A DNA stretch of 64,000 nt from Bifidobacterium scardovii JCM 12489 = DSM 13734 (GTDB lineage: Bacteria; Actinomycetota; Actinomycetes; Actinomycetales; Bifidobacteriaceae): positions 248,001 through 312,000 of the forward strand of contig NZ_AP012331.1 in assembly GCF_001042635.1 (NCBI RefSeq). Direction: 5' to 3'. A model generated the notes under the pieces. It was not told the origin of the DNA and ran no database searches. It saw nothing but the letters and a program-made list of their open reading frames with translations. Made by a program: the position numbers and the translations under genes. Positions 14,745 through 53,883 of the stretch are shown here, piece by piece; the stretch's first letter is position 1, and each line of letters opens with the position of its first letter.

Positions 14745-14801
14745 CCCAACTTCTTGTCATAGCGGGTCATTTGCCATCATCACTCTTCAGTATATCTTTC
14801 T

Positions 14802-14872
14802 TCACTCGCTATCACTTACCCTGTCACTTACCCTTGAATATAAGTGACAAGGTGAGTGATAGGGTAAGTGAT
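14802..14872 (-). promoter_or_regulatory. Palindromic TCACTTACCC array upstream of the 13010-14744 gene
   Basis: ATCACTTACCC (14811-14821) and GTCACTTACCC (14823-14833) are repeated in inverted form as TAAGTGAC (14841-14848) and GGGTAAGTGAT (14862-14872). Together they form a dyad about 60 bp long with an AT-rich centre. It lies 60-130 bp upstream of the regulator's start and is most simply an autoregulatory operator. Confidence 0.7.
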
Positions 14873-14972
14873 GGTGGGTGAAAATAATGGAACGGCAGGT
14901 GGCGTCGACCCTCGTGGCAGACATCCCTTGACCCTAATGAAGTCAACGGAATGAAATCAACCAAGGTGCGAT

Positions 14973-15007
14973 AAAGTCCTTGGAATCGCAATGATTCCAA
15001 GGACTTT
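14973..15007 (-). terminator. Bidirectional-looking terminator after the ABC exporter operon
   Basis: A 15-bp perfect stem (14973-14987 with 14993-15007) with a 5-nt loop has T-runs on both sides (AAAGTCC... and ...GGACTTTT). On the minus strand it lies about 40 bp past the stop of the last ABC gene (15047). Confidence 0.9.
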
Positions 15008-15046
15008 TGCGTTATCGCGCGGTGCGGGGCCCGCTTCCCGTAAGCC

Positions 15047-15928
15047 TCACATGCCCAGTCCGGTCACGGTGCCGCGCCTGCGGCTCAGCGCCATGCACAT
15101 GCGCCAGCACACCAGCGCCGAGACGGCCCAACCCAAACCGACCGCCAACCCCGCGCCCATACAGGCGAAGGCCGTGGCGGGATGCCCGGCGGTTAGGGCG
15201 CGCGCGGCGTCGGTCATCCACGTGATCGGTAGCGCGTGGACCGTACGGGCCACCGGCGCGGGGAACACGCTCGCCGGAGCCACCACGCCGCCGACCAGAG
15301 GCAGTACATAGCCGATTAGGTTGGTGAGCAGCAAGGCGTCGTCGAACATCAGACTCAATACGGCCGTCAGCAGACCGACACCCAGCGATGCGACCAGCGA
15401 CACCGCCATCATCAGCAGCATGGACGGCCAGAGTCCCGCAGCGGGCAGTGCTCCGGTGGCCAGCAGCGAGACGAGCATCGCGCAGCAGGAACTCGCCATC
15501 GACACTCCGAGCCCGGCGCACAGCCGGCCAGCCCATGGGGCGATCCGCGATCCGGAACCGAGCATCATGTACGGCAGCACGCCCGTGAACCGGTCCTCCG
15601 CCAACAGCGAGGCCATGGCCACGCTCGCCTGCGCCGAACAGGCCCCGATAGCCGGGACCAAAGCCGTTGCCATGGCCGTCGAGGCCGCGGCGGCGCCGGC
15701 GGCGGCACCGACACGCGGAGCCGCTTCGGTCAGCATCAGGTAGAACAGGGCAGTGAACGCCGGAGCCGCCGCCATCTGCACCAGCAGCGCCGGCAGCGAG
15801 CCGCAGTCAGGCATCGACCTGAAAGCGATCATGAACGCGGTGCGGAACGCCGATGGCCCAGGCCTCTTGACCGTCTTATCCGTCTTGGCTGACTTATCCG
15901 TCGTATCCATATTCCTCATATCGTTCAT
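15047..15928 (-). CDS. ABC-2 type exporter permease (second subunit)
   Basis: 293 residues from ATG 15928 (MNDMRNMDTTDKSAKTDK). After a ~25-residue charged tail there are six hydrophobic segments, at about residues 40-60, 75-110, 145-170, 175-200, 205-230 and 260-285. This is the ABC-2 permease pattern; there is no signal peptide or catalytic motif. The start overlaps the stop of the previous permease by 4 bp (ATGA, 15925-15928). With the ATPase at 16674 and the permease at 15925 it forms a two-permease exporter for an unknown drug, lipid or peptide. Terminator at 14973. Confidence 0.85.
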   Translation of the reverse strand: MNDMRNMDTTDKSAKTDKTVKRPGPSAFRTAFMIAFRSMPDCGSLPALLVQMAAAPAFTALFYLMLTEAAPRVGAAAGAAAASTAMATALVPAIGACSAQASVAMASLLAEDRFTGVLPYMMLGSGSRIAPWAGRLCAGLGVSMASSCCAMLVSLLATGALPAAGLWPSMLLMMAVSLVASLGVGLLTAVLSLMFDDALLLTNLIGYVLPLVGGVVAPASVFPAPVARTVHALPITWMTDAARALTAGHPATAFACMGAGLAVGLGWAVSALVCWRMCMALSRRRGTVTGLGM

Positions 15929-16677
15929 GCCAGGTCCAGCGTTCCTTCCACGCAAGCGCGCGTCAGCGCATGCCGCAAGCCGATCGCCGCCGCGCCCAGC
16001 AGCAGCGCCGACAGCGCGATGCAGCCGGCTCCGGCCAGCCACACCGCGCCGTCGAATGAGGCGCGTCCGGCCACCCAGACCGCAGACGTCAGCGGATGCG
16101 CGAACGCCAGCACCCGCAGAGGCAGCGGAAAACGGTCGACCGGCATCACGATGCCGCTCAGCAGCCACACCGGAATCAGCACCAGCGGCTCGAACGCGAT
16201 CGCCCCGCGCGACAGCACGAAGAACGCGGACAGGCCGGCCGCGCTGGACACGCAGGCGAGCAGCGCAAGCGCCAGTCCGGCGACCTGCTCAGGCGTCACC
16301 GTTACCGGACGGCCGGCGAACAATGAGGCCAGCGCAAACGCGATCGGCATGCCGATGATGCCGATCAACGCTGATGCGGCGACGGGCGGCAGGAACACCG
16401 CGCCCGCCGGATGCACGCTCATCACCTGATACTGCAGAACCCCTTGGAACCGCTGATATCCGATGATGCCGACCGCAGTGGTAGTGGTGGCCCACAGCCC
16501 GCTCACCGACGCGGCGAACCACAGGTCCGGCGTCACCTGCCAATGCGCGGCGATCAGCCGGAGCAGCGCGAAGCTGATCGGCGTGACGACGGCGGTGCCG
16601 AGGAAGAATGACGTGGCCCACAAAGCGCGCATATGGAACCAGATAGCGGCGCAACTCTCACGCAGCATGCCGCTCAC
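15925..16677 (-). CDS. ABC-2 type exporter permease (first subunit)
   Basis: 250 residues when started at GTG 16677, whose GTGA overlaps the ATPase stop (16674-16677); ATG 16668 is an alternative three codons later. The upstream extension of the frame runs inside the ATPase gene and is Arg-rich shadow sequence. Six hydrophobic segments are visible (for example ATSFFLGTAVVTPISFALLR and LVLIPVWLLSGIVMPVDRFP, the latter being the conserved region near the fifth segment of ABC-2 permeases). The second permease gene overlaps its end by 4 bp. Confidence 0.85.
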   Translation of the reverse strand: MSGMLRESCAAIWFHMRALWATSFFLGTAVVTPISFALLRLIAAHWQVTPDLWFAASVSGLWATTTTAVGIIGYQRFQGVLQYQVMSVHPAGAVFLPPVAASALIGIIGMPIAFALASLFAGRPVTVTPEQVAGLALALLACVSSAAGLSAFFVLSRGAIAFEPLVLIPVWLLSGIVMPVDRFPLPLRVLAFAHPLTSAVWVAGRASFDGAVWLAGAGCIALSALLLGAAAIGLRHALTRACVEGTLDLA

Positions 16678-17849
16678 CGTGCCTTTCCGTCGCCGATGTC
16701 GCCGTCGAATCCGCCGGCTGCGGATTCGCGTTCGTGCCGCGCCTCCAGCAGCGCCAGATACGTTTCCTCCAACGTCGCCGCCCGGATGCCGAGCCTCGCC
16801 ACGCCGGCGCCCGGCAGCTCCGGCTCCCGATGCGACCACGCGACGTTCACCGTCCACAGGCCGTTGCGTTCGTTGGCGTCCACGTATCGCACGCCATCCA
16901 GACGGTTCAGCCGTTCGCGGTCGCGCTCGCCGAACGATTCGGCCGTCCACATGGTCACGCCGTCGATGTCCATCGCCTCCGACAGGTCCGCCGTGGTGCC
17001 CGAGGCGATGATGCGGCCCCCGTCGATGATGTCGGTGCGGTCGGCCAGAGCCTCGGCCTCGGCCAGCGCATGGGTGGTCAGCAGGATGCCTGTTCCCTGA
17101 CCGCGCAGCCGCGATACCAAGGTCCGGACCGCATGCGCGTTTTCCGGGTCGAGCCCGTTGGTCGGCTCGTCCAACAGCAGCAGCGGCGCATGGTTGAGCA
17201 TCGTCCGGGCGATGTGCAGCCGTTGCGTCATGCCGCGGGAGAACGTCTCCACGCGGTTGTTCGCGACATCCGCCAGCCCGACCCAGTCCAGGGCCTCGGC
17301 GATGCGCGTCTCGCGCACGCTGCTCGGCACGCCGGCGAGCTGCGCGAAATATCGCAGATTCTCGATGGCGCTGACCCGCAGATAGAACCCGCGGTCGCCG
17401 CCCAGCAGCAGCGACAGATGGCGACGGGCGTCACGCGGCCGCCGTACCGCGTCCACGCCGCAGACGCTGATCGACCCGCCATCCGGCGTGAGCAGCGTGG
17501 CGATCATCTTCATCGTGGTGGTTTTGCCGGCGCCGTTCGGCCCCAGCAGACAGACGATGCGCCCGGCGTCGACGGTCAGTGAGATGCCGCGCACGGCTTG
17601 GTGCCGCCCGTTGCCCCGGCCGAAGGAGCGGGAGACATGGTCGAGCCGCAACACGGGATCGCCGACTGCGGGCTGGTCCGTATGCCGTCCGCTCGGTGTC
17701 GCGCCGGATTCGGCGCGGGAACCCGAGCCGGTTCCGACCCCGTCGCCGCTGGATACGATGGCGCTGATGGCATTGATGGAACCGCAACCGCCGAGGGTGC
17801 GGAAGCGGGCTATGGTATTGCGGATATTGAGAGTATTGGCGCTATGCAC
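16674..17849 (-). CDS. ABC exporter ATP-binding protein
   Basis: 391 residues from GTG 17849. I chose this start because GAAAGG lies 9 nt upstream; other possible starts (ATG 17897, TTG 17927) lack a ribosome-binding site. Residues ~1-60 are a polar tail. The ATPase domain has Walker A GPNGAGKTTT, Q-loop region SLLLGGDRGFYLRVSAIEN, signature FSRGMTQRL (a degenerate LSGGQ as in many drug exporters) and Walker B LLLLDEPTNGLDPE, with the switch His in LLTTHALAEAEAL. It heads the three-gene exporter operon on the minus strand. Confidence 0.9.
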   Translation of the reverse strand: MHSANTLNIRNTIARFRTLGGCGSINAISAIVSSGDGVGTGSGSRAESGATPSGRHTDQPAVGDPVLRLDHVSRSFGRGNGRHQAVRGISLTVDAGRIVCLLGPNGAGKTTTMKMIATLLTPDGGSISVCGVDAVRRPRDARRHLSLLLGGDRGFYLRVSAIENLRYFAQLAGVPSSVRETRIAEALDWVGLADVANNRVETFSRGMTQRLHIARTMLNHAPLLLLDEPTNGLDPENAHAVRTLVSRLRGQGTGILLTTHALAEAEALADRTDIIDGGRIIASGTTADLSEAMDIDGVTMWTAESFGERDRERLNRLDGVRYVDANERNGLWTVNVAWSHREPELPGAGVARLGIRAATLEETYLALLEARHERESAAGGFDGDIGDGKAR

Positions 17850-18267
17850 CGTAACAAACCTTTCATTAAGGCATGCCCGGCCGCCTTGACCGATCATGCC
17901 GCCGAAAGGACCATTAACCGCACGCAAGACACGCTCACGCCATCATCCTGGGCCGTGCGGCCACGCGGATGACCATCCATGCGTTGAGTCTGATGAATAC
18001 TTCAGCCGCTTGACAGCGGTTAGCGATCCTCACCTTCCATATACGAAGCAGTCTGTGATGCGGTCATTGTTACGCCTCCGATAGTGCGGTCTGTTGCTTC
18101 AGATTCTAGCATCCCGAGTCGTTAATTCGTTGAGTAGTTCTGGCTCAGCCTCCAAGAGGGGAGCCAGACACAAAGCGGCCTGAGGGGAGGAGCCCCCGCG
18201 AACGCCATGGTGCCGGGTGTATCGCATCGTGCCTGGCGCGGCGACAATGACGTGGCGAAAACGAAGA
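17850..18267. other. Gene-free stretch upstream of the ABC exporter operon
   Basis: No convincing gene on either strand. It includes the 5' region of the exporter operon and a weak stem (CTGGCTC / GAGCCAG around 18140-18167). Confidence 0.5.
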
Positions 18268-41796: not shown

Positions 41797-42049
41797 TCGT
41801 GCGTCGAATGACGTTCATCGTTCTTTTGGGTGAATCCGGGGTCATCCGTTTAGGCCTGTTTAACGTGCGAGTCGAGGCCGTAAACGACAGGATTATGCGC
41901 GATCAAGATAGGCTGTGGGCACAGGGACTGACCGGCCATGCTGATGAATCTATGGCCTATAGGCCCGGAGTGGGGGAGCGATGGCACCGGAGTGCAGGAA
42001 ACCGGAACACTAAAGGAACCAGAGGGGAAAACGAAGGGAAACAAAAAGG
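41797..42049. other. Gene-free stretch between the AlbA_2 gene and the island
   Basis: No supported gene; an 87-codon open frame here has no coding character. Its right end (42041-42049) already shows similarity to the sequence left of the right attachment repeat. Confidence 0.5.
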
Positions 42050-42107
42050 CCGGAAGCCCTAGAAAAACAAGGCCTCCGGCGAGGGCGGAGGATACGAGAT
42101 TCGAACT
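42050..42107. repeat. attL: 58-bp direct repeat, left end of the island
   Basis: 57 of 58 bases match 53368-53425. It includes the fragment GGATACGAGATTCGAACT corresponding to the tRNA-Ser 3' end and then diverges (left AGCAAG..., right CGTGAG...). Confidence 0.92.
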
Positions 42108-42230
42108 AGCAAGAGGGCGAAACCACGCGAATGCTGACACGCCGGGCTTGACGGCTGGATTTAAGCCTTTCTTGGGGAGTCGTGAAAAAGTCAGTAAGGG
42201 ACATTTCCGACGGTTTGGGTCAGACTAATA

Positions 42231-42246
42231 ACAAAATAATAACAAC
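42231..42246 (+). repeat. Left copy of a 16-bp subterminal repeat (candidate integrase arm site)
   Basis: ACAAAATAATAACAAC occurs here and at 53324-53339, near both ends of the island and in the same orientation. Position and AT-rich character suit an integrase or excisionase arm-type binding site. Confidence 0.55.
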
Positions 42247-42316
42247 GAGAGTATGCTTGGCTTACCCGAACCTCGCAGGCAAAGTGGTGCGGCGGGTTCC
42301 GGTTAAGGAAGTCAAC

Positions 42317-43609
42317 ATGGCCAAGACGAAAGGTGCCAGCGGTTTCGGCTGGCTGAGGAAAGCACAGGTCAAAGATCGAATAAACGGCGGCAAGCGGTGG
42401 GTATACTACGCCTCATATCTCAACCCCTTTGATAAAGAGGAGCGGATAAAGGCACCGCATGCGTTCGACTACAAGATGGACGCCCGGCAGTGGCTGGACG
42501 CTGAGCACAAGCTCATCAGCTCGGGGCAGTGGACTCATCCCAACGTGAGGGCGAAGGCCGCCCTTGAGGAGAGGGAGGTGGAGCGCTCCCGCAAGATGAC
42601 GTTTGGCGATTACGCGGAGCGATGGTTCGAGCGGAACGTCAATCGGTGGAAGCCTAGGACGGAGCAGACCTACAGGCAGCTGCTCGACACTTACATATTG
42701 CCGACGTTCTGCGAGACACCTTTGAATGAGGTTAGCGTGGATGATGTGGGCGAGTGGTACGACGACATGGGGAATACCCCGAGTGCCCGAGGCAACGCCT
42801 ACGGTCTGCTCAAGCAGATACTTGATGTGGCCTGTACTCCACCGAATCCGGTTCTTACCTATAACCCTTGCCAGATTAAAGGTGGGGCGAAGCATGCCGG
42901 TGGGGAGCGTCCGGTGGCGACGCCGGAACAGGTGGCAAAGCTGGCGGACGCTATGCCCGGCAAATACCGGCTTGCCGTCCTGCTGGCGGCTTGGCTGTCA
43001 CTGAGATCGGGAGAGGTCAGGGCGTTGCGGAAGAGCGACTTCGGCCTGAAGAAGCGGACTGTGCATATCCAACACAACGTGACATACACCAAACAGCATG
43101 GTTTCGTGGAATCCACGCCCAAGACCGCCGCCGGCAACCGTGTGGTAGCCATCCCATCGGCGTTAATACCCGAAATCCAAGAACATATGAAGAGGCATGT
43201 CGGCAAGGACAAGGACGCACTGCTGTTCTGCACCAGCACTGGGAATTATCTCCACCAGAGTGAGATTGAAAAGCCATTCATTGAGGCTAGGAAACAGGCC
43301 GGTTGCCCGGAGTTGCGGTTCCATGACCTTAGGCATACGGGCAACACGTTCGCCATCCAGACCGGTGTCGCCACGGTTGCCGATTTGCAGAAGCGTGGTG
43401 GCTGGACTACGCCGACCATGGCCTTGCATTACGCTCATTCGACGTTGGACAGGCAGCAGCAGATCGCGGATGCGCTCGACAAGGTCATGCGTGGCGAGAA
43501 CCCGAAGCAGGATGGCGAAGACCTTACTTCCATGGTGAAGCAACTGTTGGAAGAGAACAGGCGGCTGTCCGAACAACTGGCTGAGCTTGGCGCTGAGAAG
43601 AAGGAGTGA
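42317..43609 (+). CDS. int: Tyrosine recombinase (phage-type integrase)
   Basis: 430 residues from ATG 42317, with AAGGAAG 7 nt upstream; the frame is open from 42182 but that part is leader. N-terminal arm-binding region (WVYYASYLNPFDKEERIKAP), SAM-like core-binding domain (KMTFGDYAERWFERNVNRWK), catalytic domain from about 200. Active-site residues: Arg in WLSLRSGEVRAL, His-x-x-Arg in FHDLRHTG, Trp in GGWTTPTM and Tyr in LHYAHST. A C-terminal coiled coil (LLEENRRLSEQLAELG) is extra. It lies next to attL, as expected for an element that integrates into tRNA-Ser. Terminator at 43636. Confidence 0.95.
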   Translation: MAKTKGASGFGWLRKAQVKDRINGGKRWVYYASYLNPFDKEERIKAPHAFDYKMDARQWLDAEHKLISSGQWTHPNVRAKAALEEREVERSRKMTFGDYAERWFERNVNRWKPRTEQTYRQLLDTYILPTFCETPLNEVSVDDVGEWYDDMGNTPSARGNAYGLLKQILDVACTPPNPVLTYNPCQIKGGAKHAGGERPVATPEQVAKLADAMPGKYRLAVLLAAWLSLRSGEVRALRKSDFGLKKRTVHIQHNVTYTKQHGFVESTPKTAAGNRVVAIPSALIPEIQEHMKRHVGKDKDALLFCTSTGNYLHQSEIEKPFIEARKQAGCPELRFHDLRHTGNTFAIQTGVATVADLQKRGGWTTPTMALHYAHSTLDRQQQIADALDKVMRGENPKQDGEDLTSMVKQLLEENRRLSEQLAELGAEKKE

Positions 43610-43635
43610 CGGAATACCCTCTTCGTGCCTGACGT

Positions 43636-43669
43636 GACCCCACTGGGATTATCCCGGTGGGGTCTTTTC
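43636..43669 (+). terminator. Integrase terminator
   Basis: GACCCCAC (43636-43643) pairs with GTGGGGTC (43657-43664), with GGGAT/ATCCC inside, followed by TTTTC. Confidence 0.9.
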
Positions 43670-43699
43670 TATTGGTTGCCGTTTCGGAGCGTGTGGGGT

Positions 43700-43737
43700 C
43701 ATAAATCTGATTTATGCGGTCATAAAAGGGATTTATG
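43700..43737 (+). promoter_or_regulatory. Twin 17-bp palindromes upstream of the 43928 gene
   Basis: CATAAATCTGATTTATG (43700-43716) and CATAAAAGGGATTTATG (43721-43737) are near-identical dyads 21 bp apart, i.e. on the same helical face. They look like a double operator for a dimeric regulator of the island. The 318-bp gap 43610-43927 has no gene. Confidence 0.75.
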
Positions 43738-43927
43738 GCCACGGGTTTTCGAAAGTATGCGGGCGGTTTGAAATGTGTGCGCGGTGTGAAGATTCTTGTG
43801 CGCGGGTCTGTTTCAGAGTGCGGGAGCACGGTTTCTATGCGGACAACTCGTTGCGGGTGGGTTAGCCCCTGAGCCCGCAACGAGTCACACAGGGTGGCCG
43901 TGAGCAGCTCAGGAATGAGTTCCGACC

Positions 43928-44665
43928 ATGCTGTTGGATTGCTTTAAGGATAGGAAGAATTACAGAACCTCATACCGTAAATTGGCTAGGTACATCGGCC
44001 TGAACATGGAGACCGTTCGTCGTCTCTTCCAAGACGAGCAGAAACTGCGAGCGATGATCATTGATAATTTCCACGATACCGAGCGTGAACGCTTCATGGA
44101 AGAAAATCCTGAAACGATCAAAAAGCTCGATGATTATAGTCAGATTGACGAAATGGTTGATGAAGCCATCAACGCCTTTCTGGATTCGTGCCTGCCGCAT
44201 CCGAGACCGCGCACTATAGTGGACGCGCGGCTGTTTTTCTGGGCATACCTTCCTTGCGTCATAGAAGACATCTATGACTTCAACATGTCCGCGGAAATCG
44301 GTCATGCCATTGATGGATACCCGATATGGGCGAAGGCGGCTGACCTTGCCCGGTTCTACAAGGTCTCAGCGAAAACCCTCTACCGCTATCACAGGCACCC
44401 CTATTCGACTAATGTCGGGTTCACCTCAGTGAAGCTGGGTGGCTCCCGACTTTACCTTATCGATGAGGTGGAGCTGGTCTACCCAGAGCGGCCGGACTCC
44501 AAGCGGAGAGCGGATAAATACCCCGGCAGGCTAGACGTGCTCAAGGAAAAGAAGTGGAAATCCCGCCGACCGGCGAAGCCCGGTTCCAAGAGAGCAAGGG
44601 AAGAGGAAAGCTCTTTCCGTTTAGCGCTTGCGATTTTTGGAAAAGACAAAACTGAAAACTGGTAG
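43928..44665 (+). CDS. Island protein of unknown function, probable DNA-binding
   Basis: 245 residues. I do not recognise a family. The N-terminal ~40 residues (RTSYRKLARYIGLNMETVRR) look like a helix-turn-helix, and residues ~140-160 (DLARFYKVSAKTLYRYHRHP) look like a second HTH of the excisionase/MerR-like kind. The C-terminal ~60 residues are very basic (Lys/Arg-rich, KEKKWKSRRPAKPGSKRARE). Acidic helical sequence lies between. Its place between a double operator and an iteron array suggests a regulator, excision factor or replication/partition protein of the element; none is proven. A terminator follows at 44676. Confidence 0.7.
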   Translation: MLLDCFKDRKNYRTSYRKLARYIGLNMETVRRLFQDEQKLRAMIIDNFHDTERERFMEENPETIKKLDDYSQIDEMVDEAINAFLDSCLPHPRPRTIVDARLFFWAYLPCVIEDIYDFNMSAEIGHAIDGYPIWAKAADLARFYKVSAKTLYRYHRHPYSTNVGFTSVKLGGSRLYLIDEVELVYPERPDSKRRADKYPGRLDVLKEKKWKSRRPAKPGSKRAREEESSFRLALAIFGKDKTENW

Positions 44666-44675
44666 GCGTTCTTCG

Positions 44676-44701
44676 GGAGGCGTGGAAGCGCCTCCTTTTT
44701 T
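44676..44701 (+). terminator. Terminator after the 43928 gene
   Basis: GGAGGCG/CGCCTCC stem followed by six T. Confidence 0.9.
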
Positions 44702-44787
44702 ATGCCTGAAATCGGCACTGGCGACCCTTCTGGTCGTTTTTGTCCCCTTCCTATGTCCCGAATAGGATTTCTGTGTCCATGTGCTCG

Positions 44788-44841
44788 CCCAAATAAACTT
44801 CCCAAATAGACTTTTCCCAAATAAACTTCCCTGATTGACTT
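44788..44841. repeat. Four tandem CCCAAATARACTT units
   Basis: Units start at 44788, 44801, 44816 and 44829 (13, 15, 13 and 13 nt). The last, CCCTGATTGACTT, is degenerate. A short CCCC-TTCG-GGGG hairpin follows at 44858-44876. Confidence 0.75.
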
Positions 44842-44887
44842 CCCCAACTGTCGTAAATACCCCTTCGGAGGGGTTTCAACCGCACAT

Positions 44888-44948
44888 AAAAAGCATCAGA
44901 AACGCGCAAAAAAGCATCAGGAATGCATGAGAAAAGCATCACGAACGC
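44888..44948. repeat. Three iterons AAAAGCATCA-NNAA-YGC
   Basis: AGCATCA occurs at 44892, 44913 and 44935 in very similar 18-nt contexts, with a period of 21-22 bp (two helical turns). Iterons of this spacing are typical of plasmid-type origins or of cooperative repressor sites. Confidence 0.75.
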
Positions 44949-45842
44949 ACACAAAGCGACTCCGTTGAGAAAGCGGTTATTTTAGGAGCGGTGTGGGCGA
45001 CGCGAGGTCTTCATCGGAACGGGCTGTGAATCGTGGAAGGATTCGTGGAACGGGTCATCGGGTTCACCGTTTCCTCCCGCTGATGAGGCAGGAATAAGGG
45101 GGCATTCGCGGGAGACGGTGAGGGGGGGGTTGGTTCAGGCGTTTCGACCGGGTATGACGGGGGATTGCGGTTGGATTGGGGGGTCGGGTTCCGTGTTCGG
45201 GTTTTCGACCGGTTTATGGGAATCACGGTTTTTCGGCGGTGGGGAAAGCGGGAAACCGGTCGGGAATCGTTTTTGTCGTGAGAAAAAACCGGTGAACCGG
45301 TGAGGAAAAATCGGTGAGCGGACTGCGGTTGGCCGGTGGGTTTCCGGTTGGCGTCTCGTCTTGCGGACGCGGCGGACAAGGGCGGGCGGAATACCCGAGA
45401 ACCTACCCAACCAAAACACCCAAAGCAGTTCGGAGCGAAACGCACGCCCTAGGCGGCACAAGGCATAAAAGGCCGCGCAGGAGGGCGAGGACAGAAAATA
45501 AGGGTAAGCGGCCTACCCAAGAAAAGCGCCATAGCCTACCCAAAATCTTGAGGGGAAACCGGCGCGAAACGGCATGCGGAACGCCGGAAAAGCGTGATCG
45601 ACAGGCCGGATGAAGCGTCGTCCACTTGAGGCGGTGGAATACTTCGGAACCAGTTTCAAGACGGTGGGAAAACGGAGGCGTGCTGAAGGTCGGCGGTGGA
45701 AACCCGTGGCGGGGAATACCCTTGGTGGGTTTGGCGTGGGGAAGCCGGTCGAGGATGGCGGTGCCGTTGGTGGGGACGGGAGAGTCCTCATCGGCAGGTG
45801 ACGGACGGCTTGCTGGGTGGCCTGCCCGCGGTGGAAGCGGCG

Positions 45843-46193
45843 GGTGAATACTTCCGATGTAAAAAGTGATTGTTCGGAACCAGTTAATGATTCTTCCTAT
45901 GTAAAGTTGAATACTTCCGAACTAAAATTCTCGGCATCGGCATCGGACGGGCGGTGGGGGAATACCCGCTGTCTGGTGGGGTCGGGCACGGAATCGAATC
46001 ATGTCGGACGGCAGGTTGATCGGCGGGAACATATACGACTGGAACGAATCGTTTCCGGTGGAATTATGGGAGTTTAGGTGGGAACAGCCTTGGGCTGGGT
46101 GAGGGAAACCGGTGGATACTTCCGATGTAAAAAGTGATTGTTCGGAACCAGTTAATGATTCTTCCTATGTAAAGTTGAATACTTCCGAACTAA
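45843..46193. repeat. 83-bp direct repeat pair carrying CTTCCGA iterons
   Basis: 45843-45925 and 46111-46193 match at 82 of 83 bases. Each copy has CTTCCGATGTAA, an inverted TTCGGAAC, CTTCCTATGTAA and CTTCCGAACTAA in the same order. Confidence 0.9.
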
Positions 46194-46837
46194 TTATTGG
46201 AGGCTCAATACAGGCCGCAGGCAGGGTTCGGGCGTCATGACGGGTCGGGGTGAATACCCAGCCTGCTGGATGGGATCGTATACAAGTCGCACGCTTCGAG
46301 GCTCGGCAATGGACTGGGCGGAAACAGGCTAACTGCACTTGTGCAATCGTCTTGCGTTGGGGCTTGTGGGTGGGGAGCGCCAATACTTCCGATCTAAAAA
46401 CAATACTTCCGATCCAGTCAGAACGCCATGAATACCCTAGGAGCCTCAGGCAGTGGAGGAAGAGGCCACGGCATCCGGTGGCGGGGTCATGGCTTGGACG
46501 GTACGGGGGAACGTCCCTTCACTGGGAAAGCCGTCCTCATGGGCTGGTGACAGTGGCTTTCGGCTGGAAGTGTGGGTGCTTGTTGCATGGCCTGTGGACG
46601 GGATGCGCCAATACTTCCGAACCAATGCGAACAGGCTGGCAGAGGGAGGGCCGAATACCCCGCTGGGTATGAGAAACCCCGCCAGCTATGCGGGACTGGC
46701 GGGGCAGTGTAATCAATTAATCAATACTAGGAGATGAAAGCTGTTGCGGGCGATTCAAGACCACAACGGCTTCCACCCACCAACAACCTTGTTGATGACG
46801 GGGACTGGCGGAACGGACGCCATCAGGGGAATAGAAA

Positions 46838-46886
46838 AGACCGCATCCCTCTCCCCGTGAGGGGAGTGGTGTCAGGGATGCGGTCT
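46838..46886 (-). terminator. Nested hairpin, probable terminator of the surface-protein gene
   Basis: Outer 13-bp arms (46838-46850 with 46874-46886) and an inner CTCCCC-GTGA-GGGGAG hairpin; TTTTC follows on the minus strand. It is about 130 bp past the stop at 47015. A further stem (GGAAGCC/GGCTTCC around 46932-46966) lies between. Confidence 0.7.
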
Positions 46887-47014
46887 GTAGCAACTACCAG
46901 GTTAGGAGAACCCCGATTGCAGAGGGAGTAAGGAAGCCCCTCCGACAATAAAGAAGAGGCTTCCCGACCAGCGCTGCGCGGGCAGACGTTCTGCGCCGCA
47001 GGGGTTCCACTAGG

Positions 47015-49246
47015 CTAGCCCTTCATGCCCAGTCTGCGGGCGATGATCGAGCCGATACCGCAGACAGCCGCCCAGATAGCCGCCAGCACCATATCGAACG
47101 TGTTGACGCCGGTGACGGGCAGATTGCCGATACGCTGCTTGACGGTGACGGTCTCCTCGGGAATACCCACATCGTGGGTGGCCAGAACGTTGTTGTCCTT
47201 GTCTTTGAGGGTGGCTTGCCAGTACACGTTCCCCGCTGTCGTGGTGGAGGTGCTGTTGCTGTTTACCTGAATACCCTTGGACTGGGAGGCGGCAGTTATT
47301 TGTTCTGCGGTGAGAGGAATCTTCTGCGGGAAACCGGACAGGGGCTTGGCCGTGGACTTATCGAACTTGCCGGACTGGGGCTGGTATGCGACAAACTCTA
47401 GGTAGCTGCCCTCCGGGATGGTGCCTGTGAGCGTAGCCGTGTCATGGAATACCCCGCCTTGGTAGACCGTGGAGGAAGATACCTTCGTGGTGAGGGTCGG
47501 CGGAATCTCCTTGACTTCCACTGTCTCGGCCTTGTCGTTGGGGGAAGTCCAGAGAATCTTCTTGTTGTCGGAGTTCACCCACCTAATCCTCGGCGTGCCG
47601 ATGTAGTCGTAGTCCATGAGCGCCACGAACACGTAATACCCGGCCTTGGATGCCTTGACGGTGGGATGTTCCCCGTTGACGGTGGCTATGCCATCCTTGC
47701 CGTAGACCTGAAAATCAAGGGAGCCGTCGAAGTTCTTCTTGTCCTTGATTAACGGGAGCAGGTCATACTCGTTGGATGCCACCTTCTTGTGGTGGTCGTC
47801 CTCCTGCATGACGGGGATGACGCCGTTCTCGATCACGACGCCGTTATACTTCTCATCGAATGGCTGATCGTACCACCACACGCTCACCTTGAACTTGGTG
47901 GCGTCGGCAAGCATGTCTGGGTTGCTTGGAATACCCTTGAACTGCCCGAAGTCGGTGGGCAGGCCCTTGATGTGGAGCGTGTCATGGATTTCGGAGCCAA
48001 TGGTGACCGTGGGCTTGGAGGCGTTGCTTGTGATGGTGACCGGGGTCTGCTCCTTGGGTAATTCGCTGGTTTGCTCGGGCAACCCGAACGGCTCGGCGAA
48101 ATCCCTTCTCAAAATCACCATGTGGTACGTCTTGCCGTCAACCTGATATGTGGGCTGGTCAGCCTGCGTTACCGTCCACACCCAGTTCACGTATGTTCCA
48201 TCGGCGGGCGACTGAATACCCGAGCTGACTGTATAGGACTTGCCGAATCCGGCGGTGAACAGGCTCACCGTGGCGATGGGTTCTCCTGCCACCTTCTTCA
48301 GACGGTTGATGTAATCGGCCACGGGCTCCTTGGCGTCAGGGGAAATCTGCTCCTTGAACGTGTCCTTAGTGCCCTTGAACAGGTAGCCCGTTACTTTTAT
48401 TGGCTGAGGGGTCTCGACGTAGGTGGTTTGCTGCTGCGTGCCGATACCCGGGTTGTCCGCGTCCGGCACGCACTTGCTTCCGTTGGAGTAGGTCGCGTTC
48501 ACGGACTGAAGGTCGTCGTCCGAATACCCGTAGCTTTTCCAGTCGTCCTGCTCCAACTTGATGGGGTTCCAGTCAATGCTGCCGGAGTTCTCGGGCTTGA
48601 ACGTCGTGATGGTGTCGGTGATCTCCTCGCCTTTCTTGAAGGACTTAGGGGCTGTGGACTTAATACCCACCTCGTAGGGCACTACGGCTGCGCCTCCTGG
48701 ATGGCAGCATGGGTCGCTTATTCGCTGGGAGGCCATTTTGGACATTATGAGCGAATCCGAACCGTCGGCCTTGCGCTCGTGGAGTTCGGCCTTGAAGAAT
48801 ACCCTGCCTTGCTTCATGTCTGCGGACAGATAGTATGTGGGTGTCTCCAATACCGGATGGCTCGTTGGGTCGTTCCCCCAGCTTTCCATCTGCTCCTTCG
48901 TGGGCTCCAGCCTTACCGGTGTGGTATCCGGTTCCTGCCATGAGTATGAGTGCGACAATGGCTGGGCTGTGTCAGGGTTGAAATCGTCCTCAATACCCTT
49001 GGTGGTGGAGGTGGTGGAAGCAGTATTGGGCTGCCAGTAGGCCGTAATCATGAAATACATGGTGTTTGACCAGCCGCTTAGCGTGATGTCCGCTTGGACT
49101 GACGGGCTTTCACAGATGAAGTCGGGCTTGATGTTCAGATCGTAATCGTAGCCCATGCCACCGGCGTTGGCTGTCGGGGTGAATACCCCGAGGGTGGCGA
49201 AAGCCAGTATGAGGGTCAATGCCGCTCGTATTCTCTTTATGAGCAT
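47015..49246 (-). CDS. LPXTG-anchored surface protein of the island
   Basis: 743 residues from ATG 49246 (GGAGAA 5-7 nt upstream). Signal peptide: MLIKRIRAALTLILAFATLG followed by an Ala-x-Ala site before GGMGYDYD. C-terminal sorting signal: LPVTG at 709-713, hydrophobic stretch, RRLGMKG tail, for sortase attachment. The ectodomain has repeated Ig-like modules that each begin with a phrase such as KGEEITDTITTF, IGSEIHDTLHIKG and QGGVFHDTATLTG. This pattern is common in pilin-like or adhesin surface proteins; a binding partner is unknown. It contains 12 AATACCC heptamers (as GGGTATT in the coding strand), using GGT-ATT codons that are otherwise rare here. It is a plausible fitness gene carried by the island. 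Confidence 0.88.
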   Translation of the reverse strand: MLIKRIRAALTLILAFATLGVFTPTANAGGMGYDYDLNIKPDFICESPSVQADITLSGWSNTMYFMITAYWQPNTASTTSTTKGIEDDFNPDTAQPLSHSYSWQEPDTTPVRLEPTKEQMESWGNDPTSHPVLETPTYYLSADMKQGRVFFKAELHERKADGSDSLIMSKMASQRISDPCCHPGGAAVVPYEVGIKSTAPKSFKKGEEITDTITTFKPENSGSIDWNPIKLEQDDWKSYGYSDDDLQSVNATYSNGSKCVPDADNPGIGTQQQTTYVETPQPIKVTGYLFKGTKDTFKEQISPDAKEPVADYINRLKKVAGEPIATVSLFTAGFGKSYTVSSGIQSPADGTYVNWVWTVTQADQPTYQVDGKTYHMVILRRDFAEPFGLPEQTSELPKEQTPVTITSNASKPTVTIGSEIHDTLHIKGLPTDFGQFKGIPSNPDMLADATKFKVSVWWYDQPFDEKYNGVVIENGVIPVMQEDDHHKKVASNEYDLLPLIKDKKNFDGSLDFQVYGKDGIATVNGEHPTVKASKAGYYVFVALMDYDYIGTPRIRWVNSDNKKILWTSPNDKAETVEVKEIPPTLTTKVSSSTVYQGGVFHDTATLTGTIPEGSYLEFVAYQPQSGKFDKSTAKPLSGFPQKIPLTAEQITAASQSKGIQVNSNSTSTTTAGNVYWQATLKDKDNNVLATHDVGIPEETVTVKQRIGNLPVTGVNTFDMVLAAIWAAVCGIGSIIARRLGMKG

Positions 49247-49916
49247 TAGTTCTCCTAAATAAATCAAGGTGAATACCCCGGATGGGGCTGATGGGAAACA
49301 CAGGAGTCAAGGACGCAGGCTGGAAAGATGGGAGAAAACTCGATTAGGCATTAGGGGATATTGGACGGGTTGCAGAAAACTTGTCGGGGTTAATCAAGGG
49401 GGCGTTGACGTCGATTAAAAGGGGTGAAGTGGGGGTGTGGTTGAATACCCTGAGGGGTTACAGGGTGTGGAGACGTGGGCAATAAAAAACCCGCCGGTGG
49501 GCGGGTTCTTAACTTGGTGGTTGTTCGTTGTGACACACAGCCGTGGGATTGAATACCCACGGAGGGTGAAGGCGGAAATTTGATTACGGAAATTGACAGA
49601 GTCCCATGGACACGTATCAAACCGTACTTGAAAAATCATTTATTATCACATAGCTTCGTTATTAACTTTGAGATGAAAAAAACCTAAAAATGACAAAAGT
49701 AGAAAATTTATTATTATGGCGCGAAGCGGATGGGCGCAGGAGCGGCACCGATGAGGGCGTTTGTGGAAGCCGTGCGTCTTATAGGCAAATCCAAAAAATT
49801 TACATACTCGTAACAATTGGAAACGGCTGAAACAAGATACAGGTTTCCCTTCCGGTAATACCCACGTTCGGTTCCATATAGAGGAGTCGTATGAAAGGGA
49901 ATCCGTGGGTCATCCG
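49247..49916. other. 670-bp gene-poor stretch with terminator and AT-rich DNA
   Basis: It contains a terminator for the minus strand (AACCCGCC/GGCGGGTT, 49483-49510, T-run on the minus strand). A very AT-rich block (about 49620-49720) unlike the rest of the window could be promoter DNA for the surface-protein gene. It also has several AATACCC copies. I see no convincing gene. Confidence 0.5.
49483..49510 (-). terminator. Terminator in the minus strand of the island
   Basis: 8-bp GC stem with GGTG loop followed on the minus strand by TTTTTTATT. It would end transcription of the small gene pair at 49917-50563. Confidence 0.85.
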
Positions 49917-50279
49917 TCAGTAGAACGGGTAGCTCACCAGCCCATACGTCTCCGGCTTGTCCTCGTCCGGCTGGGGTTCCCTCACCTTGTCCGACTCCTC
50001 GAGGAAGCGGGGGTAGCGAGTCACTATGCCACCCAGTTCCGGTACGTAGAACAGCACGGATGGGGTGGGCTGCATGGCGGTGAAGATGAAGAGCTCGGCG
50101 TCGTAGGAGTCGGATGACAGCCAGTAGTCCGGGCTCTTCCCGTGGATGATGTCGGTGATGTATGCGGGAACGTCCTCGTTCCCTTTGAGGGCGGAGAGGA
50201 TGTACCCTTGGGCGTACCTGTACTTCACGTCGCTGTCCCATGTCCTCATCGCCAGTTGCTTCTTGGTGAGCTGTGTCAT
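49917..50279 (-). CDS. Hypothetical island protein (120 residues)
   Basis: 120 residues, MTQLTKKQLAMRTWDSDVKY at the start, no signal peptide and no membrane segment. It is acidic and aromatic-rich (GYILSALKGNEDVPAYITDI, SPDYWLSSDSYDAELFIFTA). I do not recognise it. Its start overlaps the stop of the gene at 50276 by 4 bp, so the two are translated together. Codon use is mixed but coding-like, with no competing frame of better quality. Confidence 0.65.
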   Translation of the reverse strand: MTQLTKKQLAMRTWDSDVKYRYAQGYILSALKGNEDVPAYITDIIHGKSPDYWLSSDSYDAELFIFTAMQPTPSVLFYVPELGGIVTRYPRFLEESDKVREPQPDEDKPETYGLVSYPFY

Positions 50280-50563
50280 TTCGTGTCCTCCTGAATACCC
50301 TGAGGCTTAAGAAAGCTGCAATCATCGTTGATCGAGGCGTTATCCCCGCCGAAATAGTATCCGTACCATACGGTGATGCGACCCACTGCGGCGTCATACA
50401 GCGCATCCGTCGGGTCGGGCACCGCCCTCCCTCGAATGAAAGCCCTTCCATGCCTCCTGCGGGGTGCTGGCTTATGTCCATCATCTTCGGAGGATTCTCG
50501 GCTTGGCTGGTCTACCAGTTCGCGGAGACTCATGGCTCGGTTCCTGCTGGCCTGATTCAACAT
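50276..50563 (-). CDS. Hypothetical island protein (95 residues)
   Basis: 95 residues from ATG 50563, with a strong AAGGAGGAC ribosome-binding site 8 nt upstream. The first 45 residues are Arg/Ser-rich and basic (SLRELVDQPSRESSEDDGHK), the rest contains VPDPTDALYDAAVGRITVWY and GYYFGGDNASINDD. Family unknown. It is translationally coupled to the 49917 gene. Confidence 0.6.
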   Translation of the reverse strand: MLNQASRNRAMSLRELVDQPSRESSEDDGHKPAPRRRHGRAFIRGRAVPDPTDALYDAAVGRITVWYGYYFGGDNASINDDCSFLKPQGIQEDTK

Positions 50564-50879
50564 GACCTGTCCTCCTTACCGGTGGTGATATGGAAGAAGA
50601 AACAAGTCATCGAAACAACATGAGAAACTACGGCTTTCGTGAGGGGAATCATCCCTGACATGCCGTCGTATGAGCTTGTGGTTGAAGGAGAAAGCCGCTG
50701 CAATCCACGCCCTGACAGGCATGTATCCGGCAGGTTGTCGGTGAGGGGAAACGGCCGAATCGCGGTGGGTTGGAATACCCGTGGAGGGTGTTCCTGCTGC
50801 AACCATTCATGGCGCTGGAATAAAAAAGCAATCTCCCTTGAATCAAGGGAGATTGCTTGTGAAGAATACCCTAGGTGGG
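50564..50879. other. Gene-free stretch with terminator
   Basis: No frame here has coding character. A perfect 16-bp inverted repeat (50827-50859) is followed on the minus strand by TTTTTT, the terminator of the small gene at 50880. Confidence 0.6.
50827..50859 (-). terminator. Terminator of the small acidic-tail gene
   Basis: 16-bp arms (AAGCAATCTCCCTTGA and its complement) around a single base, with a run of T on the minus strand. Confidence 0.9.
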
Positions 50880-51017
50880 TCAGTCCTCGTCGTCCTCGTC
50901 ATCGTCATCGGAAGCGCCGAACGGCACCGGGCAGGCGAATCCGAACGGAGGCCTCGGCTGCTCGACGCTGTGCGACAGGTTCTTCCTGATGCGCTTGATT
51001 GTGGCGCTGTACAGCAT
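50880..51017 (-). CDS. 45-residue protein with acidic tail
   Basis: ATG at 51017 (GGAGA 6 nt upstream) to TGA at 50880. The product reads MLYSATIKRIRKNLSHSVEQ, then a Pro/Phe-rich middle (PRPPFGFACPVPFG) and ends in Asp/Glu only (ASDDDDEDDED). A basic head with a strongly acidic tail suggests a small DNA-mimic or protein-binding factor, but nothing is known. It has its own ribosome-binding site and terminator. Confidence 0.55.
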   Translation of the reverse strand: MLYSATIKRIRKNLSHSVEQPRPPFGFACPVPFGASDDDDEDDED

Positions 51018-51086
51018 AGCGGTCTCCGGGAGAGACGCATTACTTGCCAGTAGACAAAAGAAGGGATTTAAAGAAAGCGCACTTCA

Positions 51087-52307
51087 CTATTTAGTTGCCG
51101 TCACTGCATATTCGTAAAGCTGCTTGTTGCTGTTGCGTTTACGTATAGCTGTGGCCTTAACATCATGGTACCCGAGTGCTTTCATCATCTCCGCATACCA
51201 TGTATGCGCTGGCACCTCAATACCGGAGAATGTAGAATTGCCTACGATATAGCACAATTTTCCACCCTCTTTAACTGCTGGCGTAATAGCCTTGAAATGT
51301 GACCACATATCGTCAAAATACTTATATACATACGGAGATAGGATTTCTCCACTCTTTCCCTGAAGTATCTTTTCGCACACATCACTGAGTGTGGCATCAA
51401 TAGGCGATTCATGCGGAGAGACACGAGCACGTAGTTTGGTGCCAACCGAGCCCCATGTGCCGCCTATGGTTCTCCAATCCATCTCTCCGGCCTGTTCCCC
51501 AGAGGTAAGATAGCGCATCCAATACATGTAAGGACGAAGCTCGCGGATATACGACATGCGGTTTGCATACGGCGGTGACGTGATTACTAGATCAGCCGGC
51601 TCATATCCAGTAAATGGTAGCGTAGAATCACCATGCTCCACGGAGGCTTCCCCTACAGGGATATCGTTCATTGCCTTCGCTACGACATCCTTCACTTCAG
51701 TTGCATAGCTTCTGACGTTATGGAGAAAATCCTCTCGTGAATACCCAAAGAGGGTTTCTTGGTCTTTAAAAGACATGCTCTGGTGATTGAAGGCAGCTGC
51801 GCTAAGTCCTATAAGCAGACGGCAGAAAGCTACATCCAGAAGGGTTCTCACCTTGCCGCTTCGCTTATCTATCTCATGTCGAAGCGCGGCCAGAGCCTCC
51901 AATGAAGCCTGATCCCACCACCTAGTGATGTTGTGCATGGGAGGAACCCATAGGTCGTCCAGCCCCTCAAATTTAGAAGCCTCGGATATGACCGAATGTG
52001 CTGCTTCTATAGTGGCTTCGTCTTCTTCCTTGCTATAGGAATCCAGTTTGGCATTGCCCAACCATACGAGGAACGGGTTAATCTCCCGTGCATTGCAGGA
52101 CAACCCCAGTTCGGATGCAGCTAACGGAGTTGTGCCACTACCTGAGAAAGGCTCTATAACCTTGCTGCCTTCGGGCAACTTGGAAAGTTCCCCATAAACA
52201 AGGTTAATGCCATACGCGGGGGTAAGGCGGAGCCATCCGTGACGGCCCGCCTTAATGTTCGCCTTGTATGTGTAATCAGATCGCTGTCGTAAGGCAGTTT
52301 GCTTCAC
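51087..52307 (-). CDS. Type II DNA methyltransferase (SPPY motif, N4-cytosine or N6-adenine)
   Basis: 406 residues. SAM-binding motif I is FSGSGTT (about residues 54-60), motif IV is TSPPYANRMSY (about 240), with a target-recognition region around TWGSVGTKLRARVSPHES. SPPY is most common in N4-cytosine enzymes. The N-terminus is short and basic. It overlaps the upstream endonuclease gene by 4 bp (52304-52307). The pair protects the island's host against foreign DNA and may help keep the island in place. It is lower in GC than the core genome. Confidence 0.9.
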   Translation of the reverse strand: MKQTALRQRSDYTYKANIKAGRHGWLRLTPAYGINLVYGELSKLPEGSKVIEPFSGSGTTPLAASELGLSCNAREINPFLVWLGNAKLDSYSKEEDEATIEAAHSVISEASKFEGLDDLWVPPMHNITRWWDQASLEALAALRHEIDKRSGKVRTLLDVAFCRLLIGLSAAAFNHQSMSFKDQETLFGYSREDFLHNVRSYATEVKDVVAKAMNDIPVGEASVEHGDSTLPFTGYEPADLVITSPPYANRMSYIRELRPYMYWMRYLTSGEQAGEMDWRTIGGTWGSVGTKLRARVSPHESPIDATLSDVCEKILQGKSGEILSPYVYKYFDDMWSHFKAITPAVKEGGKLCYIVGNSTFSGIEVPAHTWYAEMMKALGYHDVKATAIRKRNSNKQLYEYAVTATK

Positions 52308-53164
52308 TGGGTCTCCAGAATAGATGTGAGAATGGCGTGGGTCTGATCACGGAACACCTGCGAGTTCCTCTCGAAGAACCCCGCTAGGTCGTAGCCGACC
52401 ACCTGTCTGAAGAAAGCATAGGTACTGGTTAGGGGGTTATCATCTTGTAGATTACCCGTCATTACGCAGATATTCGACCGTTCATAGCGGTTACGTATAG
52501 CGTTGGGTATCTGCATACTCATCACCATGACGAACATCTGATAGGCCGAATTAAGAGCATGAGAGCCATTAACTATATCACCCTTGGCACGCTTACTGTC
52601 TTGGCTCTTGTAGCCTTGGCGAATCTCGAATACCGCCCCTTGCAGATCAAACTGGGTACCCTGTGCCTCTTTCACGGAGTTCAGCCAATCGGCCAAGACC
52701 TCTCCTTTTTCAGTAGGTCCAACCATGCCTAGGTCAAGACGGCCATCCAGTGTCCTATGCGTCTGAGTACCGTTGTCCTCAGTAATGACATAACCCCAGT
52801 TCGCTTCTTCTTCCGTAAGGCAGTACTCGTCTATAAAGATTTGCCGCACTAGACGCTCCATGCCGTCACCAAGGTGCCTATAGATAGAAGTCTGGCCGCC
52901 GCCTGCCTTCGCAGCGAGGTACATTAACTCATTATCGAGTCCCATCCAGTGATACAAAGGGTCAGTCGAGTACAAGTCGATGAAGTCAGGAAGCGAGACG
53001 GCACTACCCGTCCCCATCTTAGGCTGATACTCCATCGCAGTACGAAGAGGGGCAAGCACTATCTCTCTATACTGTGCATCTCTAACGCCCCAAGACCTTA
53101 GTGCTTCCACTCCTTTGACCGTGTCGGCCTCGGTAAGGTGTGTTCTAAGTCCACCTGCGCACAT
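52304..53164 (-). CDS. Type II restriction endonuclease (PD-(D/E)XK type)
   Basis: 286 residues. The putative active site is LDGRLDLGMVG (Asp) followed by VFEIRQGYKSQDSKRAKGD, where Glu and Lys complete a PD-(D/E)xK-like core; similar RQGYKSxDSKR segments occur in type II enzymes. The remaining ~150 N-terminal residues are helical with a basic/aromatic content. Recognition sequence cannot be read. It precedes the methyltransferase in the same operon. The start ATG 53164 is preceded by GAAAGG. Confidence 0.8.
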   Translation of the reverse strand: MCAGGLRTHLTEADTVKGVEALRSWGVRDAQYREIVLAPLRTAMEYQPKMGTGSAVSLPDFIDLYSTDPLYHWMGLDNELMYLAAKAGGGQTSIYRHLGDGMERLVRQIFIDEYCLTEEEANWGYVITEDNGTQTHRTLDGRLDLGMVGPTEKGEVLADWLNSVKEAQGTQFDLQGAVFEIRQGYKSQDSKRAKGDIVNGSHALNSAYQMFVMVMSMQIPNAIRNRYERSNICVMTGNLQDDNPLTSTYAFFRQVVGYDLAGFFERNSQVFRDQTHAILTSILETQ

Positions 53165-53323
53165 ATCCCATGCCCTTTCGTTGGCTCATTCGATAACCCC
53201 AAGTGTACGTGCCACACATCACCGACTATTTGCTGAGCGCCGAAAACCCCTCTCCCGACTGGAGAACGAGGCACCGCGACACGCCCGAGAATACCCAGAG
53301 CGGGGGCGAAGTACGGAACGACG

Positions 53324-53339
53324 ACAAAATAATAACAAC
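53324..53339 (+). repeat. Right copy of the 16-bp subterminal repeat
   Basis: Identical to 42231-42246 and 29 bp inside the right attachment repeat. Confidence 0.55.
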
Positions 53340-53367
53340 AAACGGAAAAACGGAGAGAACAAAAAAG

Positions 53368-53425
53368 CCGGAAGCCCTAGAAAAATAAGGCCTCCGGCGA
53401 GGGCGGAGGATACGAGATTCGAACT
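53368..53425. repeat. attR: 58-bp direct repeat overlapping tRNA-Ser
   Basis: Matches 42050-42107 at 57 of 58 bases. Its right 22 bp are the 3' end of the tRNA-Ser gene, so integration leaves the tRNA intact. Confidence 0.92.
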
Positions 53426-53488
53426 CGTGAGGCTGTTACACCAACACGCTTTCCAAGCGTGCGCCATAGACCACTAGGCGAATCCTCC
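53404..53488 (-). tRNA. tRNA-Ser (anticodon GGA), integration site of the island
   Basis: 85 nt including a long variable arm. Acceptor GGAGGAT/ATCCTCC, discriminator G, anticodon stem CACGC/GCGTG with loop TTGGAAA (GGA, Ser), T arm ACGAG-TTCGAAT-CTCGT. Its 3' end is duplicated at 42086-42107. Confidence 0.95.
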
Positions 53489-53883
53489 ATGGTGCCTGTT
53501 GATGCGTAAAGCATCAGCACACAATTTGTAGAGAATAGCACATCAATGGGATAAACAAAATTCGCCCGCGTGGCGTGTCGCGTACCGCCGTTTCACGGAG
53601 AGTTTCACGGTGTTTTTCGACTGGTGGCGAAAGGAACGGTTGCATATGCGCGCGAGAAGGGGTGGATGGTCTGTTTCGGCCGAGCGGGGCCGTCAATGAC
53701 TGGAAGAATGGGTCCACGCCGAACGCCGTTGTTCAACGCGGACTCGCTTGTGGTTGCCTGTCGCCCGAAGGCGGGGCGGGTGGGGGTCGTCTGACTCTGA
53801 TCGAGGTTCGTGCGGTTCGGCGTGTTTCGGCGCGGTTCGGCGCGAACCGATGCGGGGCGCCGTTCGTCGCCGAACGGTGCCGA
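53489..53883. other. 395-bp gene-free stretch
   Basis: Nothing supported beyond the tRNA-Ser upstream region; a 74-codon open frame here lacks coding character. Confidence 0.5.

Follow-up and report, generated by a model that had tools for sequence, protein, structure and literature searches.

An oriented heptamer in a tRNA-Ser island

The stretch analysed here (the window, 64,000 nucleotides of Bifidobacterium scardovii JCM 12489, contig NZ_AP012331.1, positions 248,001 to 312,000, numbered from its first letter) contains an 11.4-kb island at a tRNA-Ser gene that has 31 copies of the heptamer AATACCC on the + strand and none on the - strand, over a span of 42773-53290. In 24 of the 31 copies the heptamer is part of the longer word GAATACCC, while the remainder of the window holds no forward copy and two reverse copies (1517 and 14055). 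The heptamer counts had been reported in a preliminary description of the same DNA, together with a density of 29 copies in 42.7-50.9 kb, and all of them were confirmed by recounting (29 of the 31 copies start at or before 50865).

Attachment repeats of 68 bp delimit the island at 42040-42107 and 53358-53425; they are 97% identical, and the right one overlaps the tRNA-Ser(GGA) gene (53401-53489, - strand). A tyrosine integrase (42314-43609, +; Pfam Phage_integrase, 8e-16; start set by alignment, the longest open reading frame starting at 42182) has relatives of 47-60% identity in five other genomes of the genus. It is followed by a helix-turn-helix (HTH) or excisionase-like protein (43928-44665, +), which weakly matches phrog_66 (excisionase and transcriptional regulator, 2.2e-5) and is a candidate reader of the heptamer. 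Four copies lie in or between these two genes (42773-44523, starting at 42773, 43165, 43613 and 44517), and a further seven in a non-coding stretch (44856-46660; 44856, 45390, 45715, 45961, 46253, 46431 and 46654). The main cargo is a surface-protein gene of LPXTG type (47015-49267, -), whose reading frame contains LPVTG, which we take to be an LPXTG-type motif; the protein belongs to no Pfam family and has distant relatives in 71 of 112 genomes of the genus. Inside this gene, and antisense to it, are eleven copies (47162-49188; 47162, 47270, 47448, 47635, 47930, 48215, 48523, 48662, 48798, 48992 and 49182), and upstream of it there are seven (49272-50871; 49272, 49444, 49552, 49857, 50294, 50774 and 50865). 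A DNA methyltransferase-like gene (51087-52307, -; Pfam N6_N4_Mtase at 3.5e-5, under its cut-off) carries one copy at 51740, and its partner gene (52304-53164, -), for which the preliminary description proposed a restriction role, has no Pfam match. The final copy (53290-53296), like all the others on the + strand, adjoins the right attachment repeat.

A tyrosine integrase and a tRNA attachment repeat, as in pSAM2-type elements (actinomycete integrative and conjugative elements, AICEs), are present in the island. A replication initiator was not found, either by comparing the island with three Rep proteins or by comparing its two long non-coding stretches with seven. A search of the bacterium's own genome with PF01580 for the FtsK- or TraB-type motor envisaged in the preliminary description gave three matches, none of them in the window.

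Excess, coding context and spacing of the copies

An order-2 Markov model predicts 1.08 copies of AATACCC in the island on the + strand and 1.46 on both strands, and with 31 copies it is the highest-ranked 7-mer of the island. The eleven copies within the surface-protein gene are spread over all three reading frames (2, 3 and 6), and after synonymous shuffling of this gene only 0.4-0.5 copies are obtained. Over the whole island, 16 of the 31 copies are non-coding and 15 are within genes. The proposal that selection acts on the nucleic acid and not on the protein is thus supported.

The 26 sites in 44.5-50.9 kb are separated by at least 90 bp, a minimum gap that was equalled in none of 20,000 random placements, and they are more evenly distributed than random sites (coefficient of variation of the gaps 0.50, P 0.0002); it should be noted that this sub-range was picked after the data had been seen. 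None of the periods tested for helical phasing was significant. In seven of the 31 copies GGG follows AATACCC at offset +5 (P 9e-6), which creates a short ACCC-N5-GGGT inverted repeat, and six of these seven are among the 16 non-coding copies (P 1.6e-5), both P values being uncorrected for the number of offsets tried. No other island compared has its first GGG at offset +5.

The non-coding block at 44.9-46.65 kb seems to be flanked by convergent terminators, of which the one on the + strand is listed by prediction and the - strand hairpin is our own reading. At E 0.05, comparison with a set of proteins gave no relic gene beneath the non-coding copies, and the tRNA was the sole Rfam match in the island. 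Several further sequence features were observed. A second word found only on the + strand, AATACTT (mostly AATACTTCCGA), has seven copies at 45638-46620, a region that also contains an 83-bp direct repeat (45843-45925 and 46111-46193) for which iterons or a relic origin are possible explanations. CGGTGG likewise shows polarity within the island, with 21 forward copies and 2 reverse ones in 42040-53425, and at 50826-50858 a perfect 16-bp inverted repeat with a T-run is predicted to be terminator-like on the - strand.

Host genome and control loci

The whole genome (3,158,347 bases) contains GAATACCC 62 times in forward and 36 times in reverse orientation. As the island accounts for 24 of the forward copies, 38 forward and 36 reverse copies are left outside it, so that there is no excess polarity, and the list of genomic positions reveals no second cluster like that of the island. 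A host-wide Chi or KOPS function is not supported by these numbers, which agree with the preliminary description in that the word is neither in excess nor polar elsewhere in the genome. In the same genome, four AATACCC copies of alternating orientation lie within about 90 bp (G000 C1:1885234-1885324, about 17235-17324 of locus L086).

Nor is the enrichment a general property of genes for LPXTG proteins, since 19 other LPXTG loci hold two copies in 78 kb, or of tyrosine-integrase elements, since nine other integrase loci of the genus (L048-L056, 33-38% identity, eight genomes) hold zero to three copies each. The eleven viral-contig relatives hold zero to two copies each. A set of 25 comparison loci, which include the integrase end of one related island (that of genome G070, which is divided between two contigs) and four flanks of motif islands, contain 26 copies, compared with 18.5 expected. 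Coiled-coil membrane proteins resembling a cargo protein of the related islands have profile matches in 157 of 189 Bifidobacteriaceae genomes, and 15 further coiled-coil loci (L116-L130), with zero to four copies per 18-kb stretch, show no comparable cluster. Among plasmids no DNA closely related to the window island, or to the Rep of the related island L007, was found. In the open-licence literature GAATACCC was not found together with Bifidobacterium, and whole-word searches for three words retrieved one unrelated paper only.

Related islands and a wider element family

Relatives of the HTH protein are encoded in 6 of the 112 genomes of the genus, the own genome included, and the same six genomes encode the integrases of 47-60% identity. 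Five relative islands adjoin a tRNA-Ser(GGA). The named hosts are B. goeldii, B. ruminantium, B. pongonis and B. erythrocebi, and a protein of genome G089 bears the name B. sp. ESL0769. In all six islands of this integrase/HTH family AATACCC/GGGTATT ranks first among the 7-mers, in agreement with the prediction that the word would recur in related islands: on both strands there are 31 copies versus 1.46 expected in the window, 11 versus 0.59 in L007, 10 versus 0.63 in L008, 10 versus 0.56 in L009, 22 versus 0.89 in L010 and 11 versus 1.08 in L011. The six islands represent four lineages, because L007, L008 and L009 are 91-94% identical across most of the cargo and were counted as one. At the DNA level the window has nothing in common with L010 and L011 beyond the tRNA region, the integrase or short stretches, and L007 and L011 have a single weak 132-bp match, which lies in the coiled-coil gene.

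More distant elements whose cargo includes surface proteins carry the word as well. Those discovered via their proteins are L084, from another genus of the family (6 copies, P 3e-4), L114 (4 copies, P 6e-4) and the remnant L115 (8 copies, P 1e-9). The elements L113 (8 copies, P 7e-6), L088 (4 copies, P 0.02) and L090 (3 copies, P 0.01) were discovered via the word itself, and hence their P values are biased; a further element, L085, has no copy. The three word-discovered elements emerged from searches for pairs of sites at two spacings, which gave matches in 24 and 35 of the 112 genomes, mostly isolated ones or ones in one conserved gene.

Members of the element family combine an integrase with an HTH or excisionase-like protein and with cargo that is surface-located or secreted; most also have a Rep, and some have an FtsK-like motor. 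The Rep of L007 is weakly RepSA-like (below the cut-off), those of L011 and L084 match Viral_Rep/RNA_helicase, and that of L010 has no Pfam match. L084, L085, L088, L113 and L114 encode small FtsK-like motors; these proteins, of about 260-280 amino acids, adjoin the Rep gene, as is also the case on the free plasmid p4M (L131), where motor and Rep have the same order as in the islands. An additional FtsK-like protein of 609-688 amino acids is encoded by five of the six main-family hosts. Similar integrative elements are surveyed in PMC3218068, excerpts of which describe one additional putative element, of Rep2 type, in B. longum. A separate intergenic repeat family, apparently unrelated to AATACCC, was seen in L085 (genome G052), where a palindromic repeat around GAATCGGACA lies at 13670-18141 and AATCGGACA occurs 11 times forward and 8 times reverse over 20 kb.

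Orientation and turnover of the sites

The strand lock that had been described is complete in the window island, and strict only there: the relatives carry both orientations, with 6 and 5 copies in L007 and 9 and 13 in L010, while 10 of 11 copies in L011 point one way. Two rules could account for these orientations. Relative to the genes, the sites were compared with 1000 synonymous-codon shuffles of the surface, secreted and coiled-coil genes of 11 loci (24.4 kb in total), L008 and L009 having been excluded as near-duplicates of L007. Antisense copies, i.e. GGGTATT on the coding strand, number 51 in this cargo versus 5.8 expected, and the shuffle maximum was 14. The excess persists when the three loci found via the word are omitted (42 versus 4.75) and when the window is omitted as well (31 versus 4.2), and antisense copies are in the majority in nine of the ten loci that have cargo copies. 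Core genes (33.2 kb) contain two antisense copies (0.67 expected) and six sense copies (2.6 expected, reached in 15 of 1000 shuffles), and small other genes (5.7 kb), which were left out of the main cargo/core count, contain four antisense and no sense copies.

Relative to the element, a hand tally over ten islands, without L008 and L009, indicates that 86 of the 108 copies are directed away from the integrase, towards the opposite end (window 31/31, L007 5/11, L010 13/22, L011 10/11, L084 4/6, L088 4/4, L090 2/3, L113 6/8, L114 3/4 and L115 8/8). Because the cargo usually faces the integrase, the two rules are largely confounded, and they fit about equally well. The sole inverted cargo block that was found favours the antisense-to-gene rule. 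In L007 the coiled-coil and secreted genes are directed away from the integrase, and the related genes in the remnant L115 are directed towards it; in both, the sites in the coiled-coil gene are exclusively antisense (five in L007 and four in L115, three common to both and the others private). In this pair of loci the sites therefore follow the gene.

An alignment of the coiled-coil genes revealed that the sites are at different codons in different lineages, which speaks against an explanation by inherited positions alone. Within L007-L009, 1 of 56 motif columns is variable versus 8.4% of the other columns (P 0.07, poorly aligned columns excluded), with one site missing from L009 and one altered in L008; conservation of the sites in this lineage is suggestive only.

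Interpretation

AATACCC is in large excess, limited among the loci examined to these elements and concentrated in their cargo. It is present in three frames and in non-coding DNA, its sites turn over, and its orientation is strongly biased. Selection is on the nucleic acid within one class of mobile elements, mostly in surface cargo. We regard AATACCC, which in most cargo genes reads GGGTATT on the coding strand, as a signal that acts in cis in a family of integrative elements present in Bifidobacterium and in one or more other genera of its family; the observation suggests that integrated bifidobacterial elements have a control or guidance signal not described before. Of the interpretation offered in the preliminary description, nucleic-acid selection, recurrence in related islands and the silencer option have gained support, and a Chi or KOPS site in the host sense has not.

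The reading we favour, with a probability of roughly one in three, is that the copies are transcription-polar regulatory sites in the cargo that work by analogy with phage stoperators. A DNA-binding protein, possibly the HTH protein, would bind the asymmetric sites, the bound protein would hinder RNA polymerase in one direction, and the surface genes would be kept quiet while the element is integrated, an action like that of the stoperators of cluster A mycobacteriophages. This reading is based on the antisense excess in cargo, the few copies in core genes, the turnover of sites, the inversion between L007 and L115, the even spacing and the stoperator precedent. Membership of the stoperators is not claimed, because the location differs and the HTH protein is only a candidate reader. 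Whether the word amounts to a lineage-wide code, i.e. a 7-bp asymmetric word that is selected at synonymous and non-coding positions, gained anew in each lineage, aligned with the genes and read by a factor that controls the cargo, is in our judgement evenly balanced.

Several observations weigh against stoperator-like control. About half of the window copies are in genes, unlike stoperators. Cargo sense copies are also in excess (11 versus 3.0 expected, reached in 0 of 1000 shuffles); the L010 surface gene accounts for nine of the eleven, each of them in the Asn-Thr frame, and has five antisense copies besides. Sense copies make up six of the eight copies in core genes, and in the window every copy in the block that apparently lies between convergent terminators is on the + strand. 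The good fit of the away-from-integrase rule belongs here as well, and plasmid p4M has a related motor and Rep yet a single copy. The HTH protein is doubtful as the sole determinant, since L085 encodes a relative and has no site, and L088 and L090 have sites and no HTH match by tblastn. The protein itself has two weakly matched regions; its profile gave 13 weak matches to solved structures (the best, lac repressor, at E 0.45), among which there was no solved phage repressor, and its structure model (mean pLDDT 54 from 7 sequences) is too poor for use.

That the word instead provides guide or loading sites for a double-stranded DNA translocase of the TraB or FtsK type, which would move the excised element one way, possibly with a helper motor acting in trans, appears doubtful to us. 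The near-uniform direction in the window and L011, the tally of copies that point away from the integrase and the even spacing are consistent with such a guide, as are the FtsK-like motors of the sister elements, the larger FtsK-like proteins of the main-family hosts and the reading of 8-bp repeats by TraB (excerpts of PMC5365140). To this extent the observations favour the guide hypothesis of the preliminary description; it is at odds with the two orientations in L007-L009 and L010, the inverted cargo block, the scarcity of copies in core genes, the lack of a PF01580 motor in the window island, the motor without any copy in L085 and the motor with one copy on p4M. Other roles at the DNA level, such as partition, nucleoid attachment or recognition of the elements as foreign by a host factor, are about as doubtful. 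The Rep and HTH types that the word accompanies differ between hosts, and its reader may therefore be a protein of the host, but the own host has no genome-wide excess and other LPXTG loci are almost devoid of the word.

The bias of GGGTATT to the coding strand of cargo genes and the inverted repeat at 7 of the 31 window copies would also fit a scenario in which an RNA-binding protein binds, or a nuclease cleaves, GGGUAUU in cargo transcripts. This signal at the mRNA level is unlikely in view of the 16 non-coding window copies, the lack of the repeat at +5 in the other islands compared and the Rfam result for the island. It is hardly credible that the word has no function and arises from codon usage, protein repeats or composition. 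Some copies do fall in recurring peptides (GYS, KGI and NTPG), and the sense copies of L010 share the Asn-Thr frame; however, shuffling that preserves both protein and codon usage yields 5.8 copies instead of 51, and the three frames, the non-coding copies and the first rank in six islands speak against it.

Dense and oriented sites within the coding regions of mobile cargo, found in several host species in cargo genes that have no similarity at the nucleotide level, would give an integrated element a novel means of controlling or moving its genes. The word could also be used as a tag to find a little-known element family in gut bacteria.

Comparison with known systems

FtsK KOPS and Chi are polar 8-mers that are read by tracking enzymes and spread over the host chromosome. 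In contrast, GAATACCC is present outside the island in only 38 forward and 36 reverse copies in this host. The repeats recognized by TraB on Streptomyces plasmids and pSAM2-type elements (clt) are similar in that they, too, are short direct repeats, of 8 bp, carried by an integrative element or plasmid of actinobacteria (excerpts of PMC5365140 and PMC3218068). They are tied to the TraB gene and the clt locus, while the island word is distributed over about 8 kb of a motorless island and has both orientations in relatives. PMC4170104 describes SpdA2 and sps of pIJ101, a conserved short site within a plasmid gene that is read by an element-encoded DNA-binding protein; sps is palindromic and tied to segregational stability, whereas AATACCC is asymmetric and present in tens of copies.

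The stoperators of the cluster A mycobacteriophages L5 and TipsytheTRex, as portrayed in excerpts of PMC9283540, are 13 bp long, compared with 7-8 bp for the island word, and are located in promoters and short intergenic spaces, whereas 15 of the 31 window copies are in genes. Their repressor has two DNA-binding domains, for which the HTH protein, with its two weakly matched regions and poor model, is an uncertain counterpart. Nevertheless, stoperators are asymmetric and dispersed, their orientation is tied to transcription and reversed sites fail, and they have been proposed to stop elongation. The island word resembles them in its many asymmetric copies over one mobile genome, and possibly in an orientation related to transcription: its 51 antisense and 11 sense copies in cargo genes fit such a relation, which is confounded with the direction from the integrase and to which L010 is an exception.

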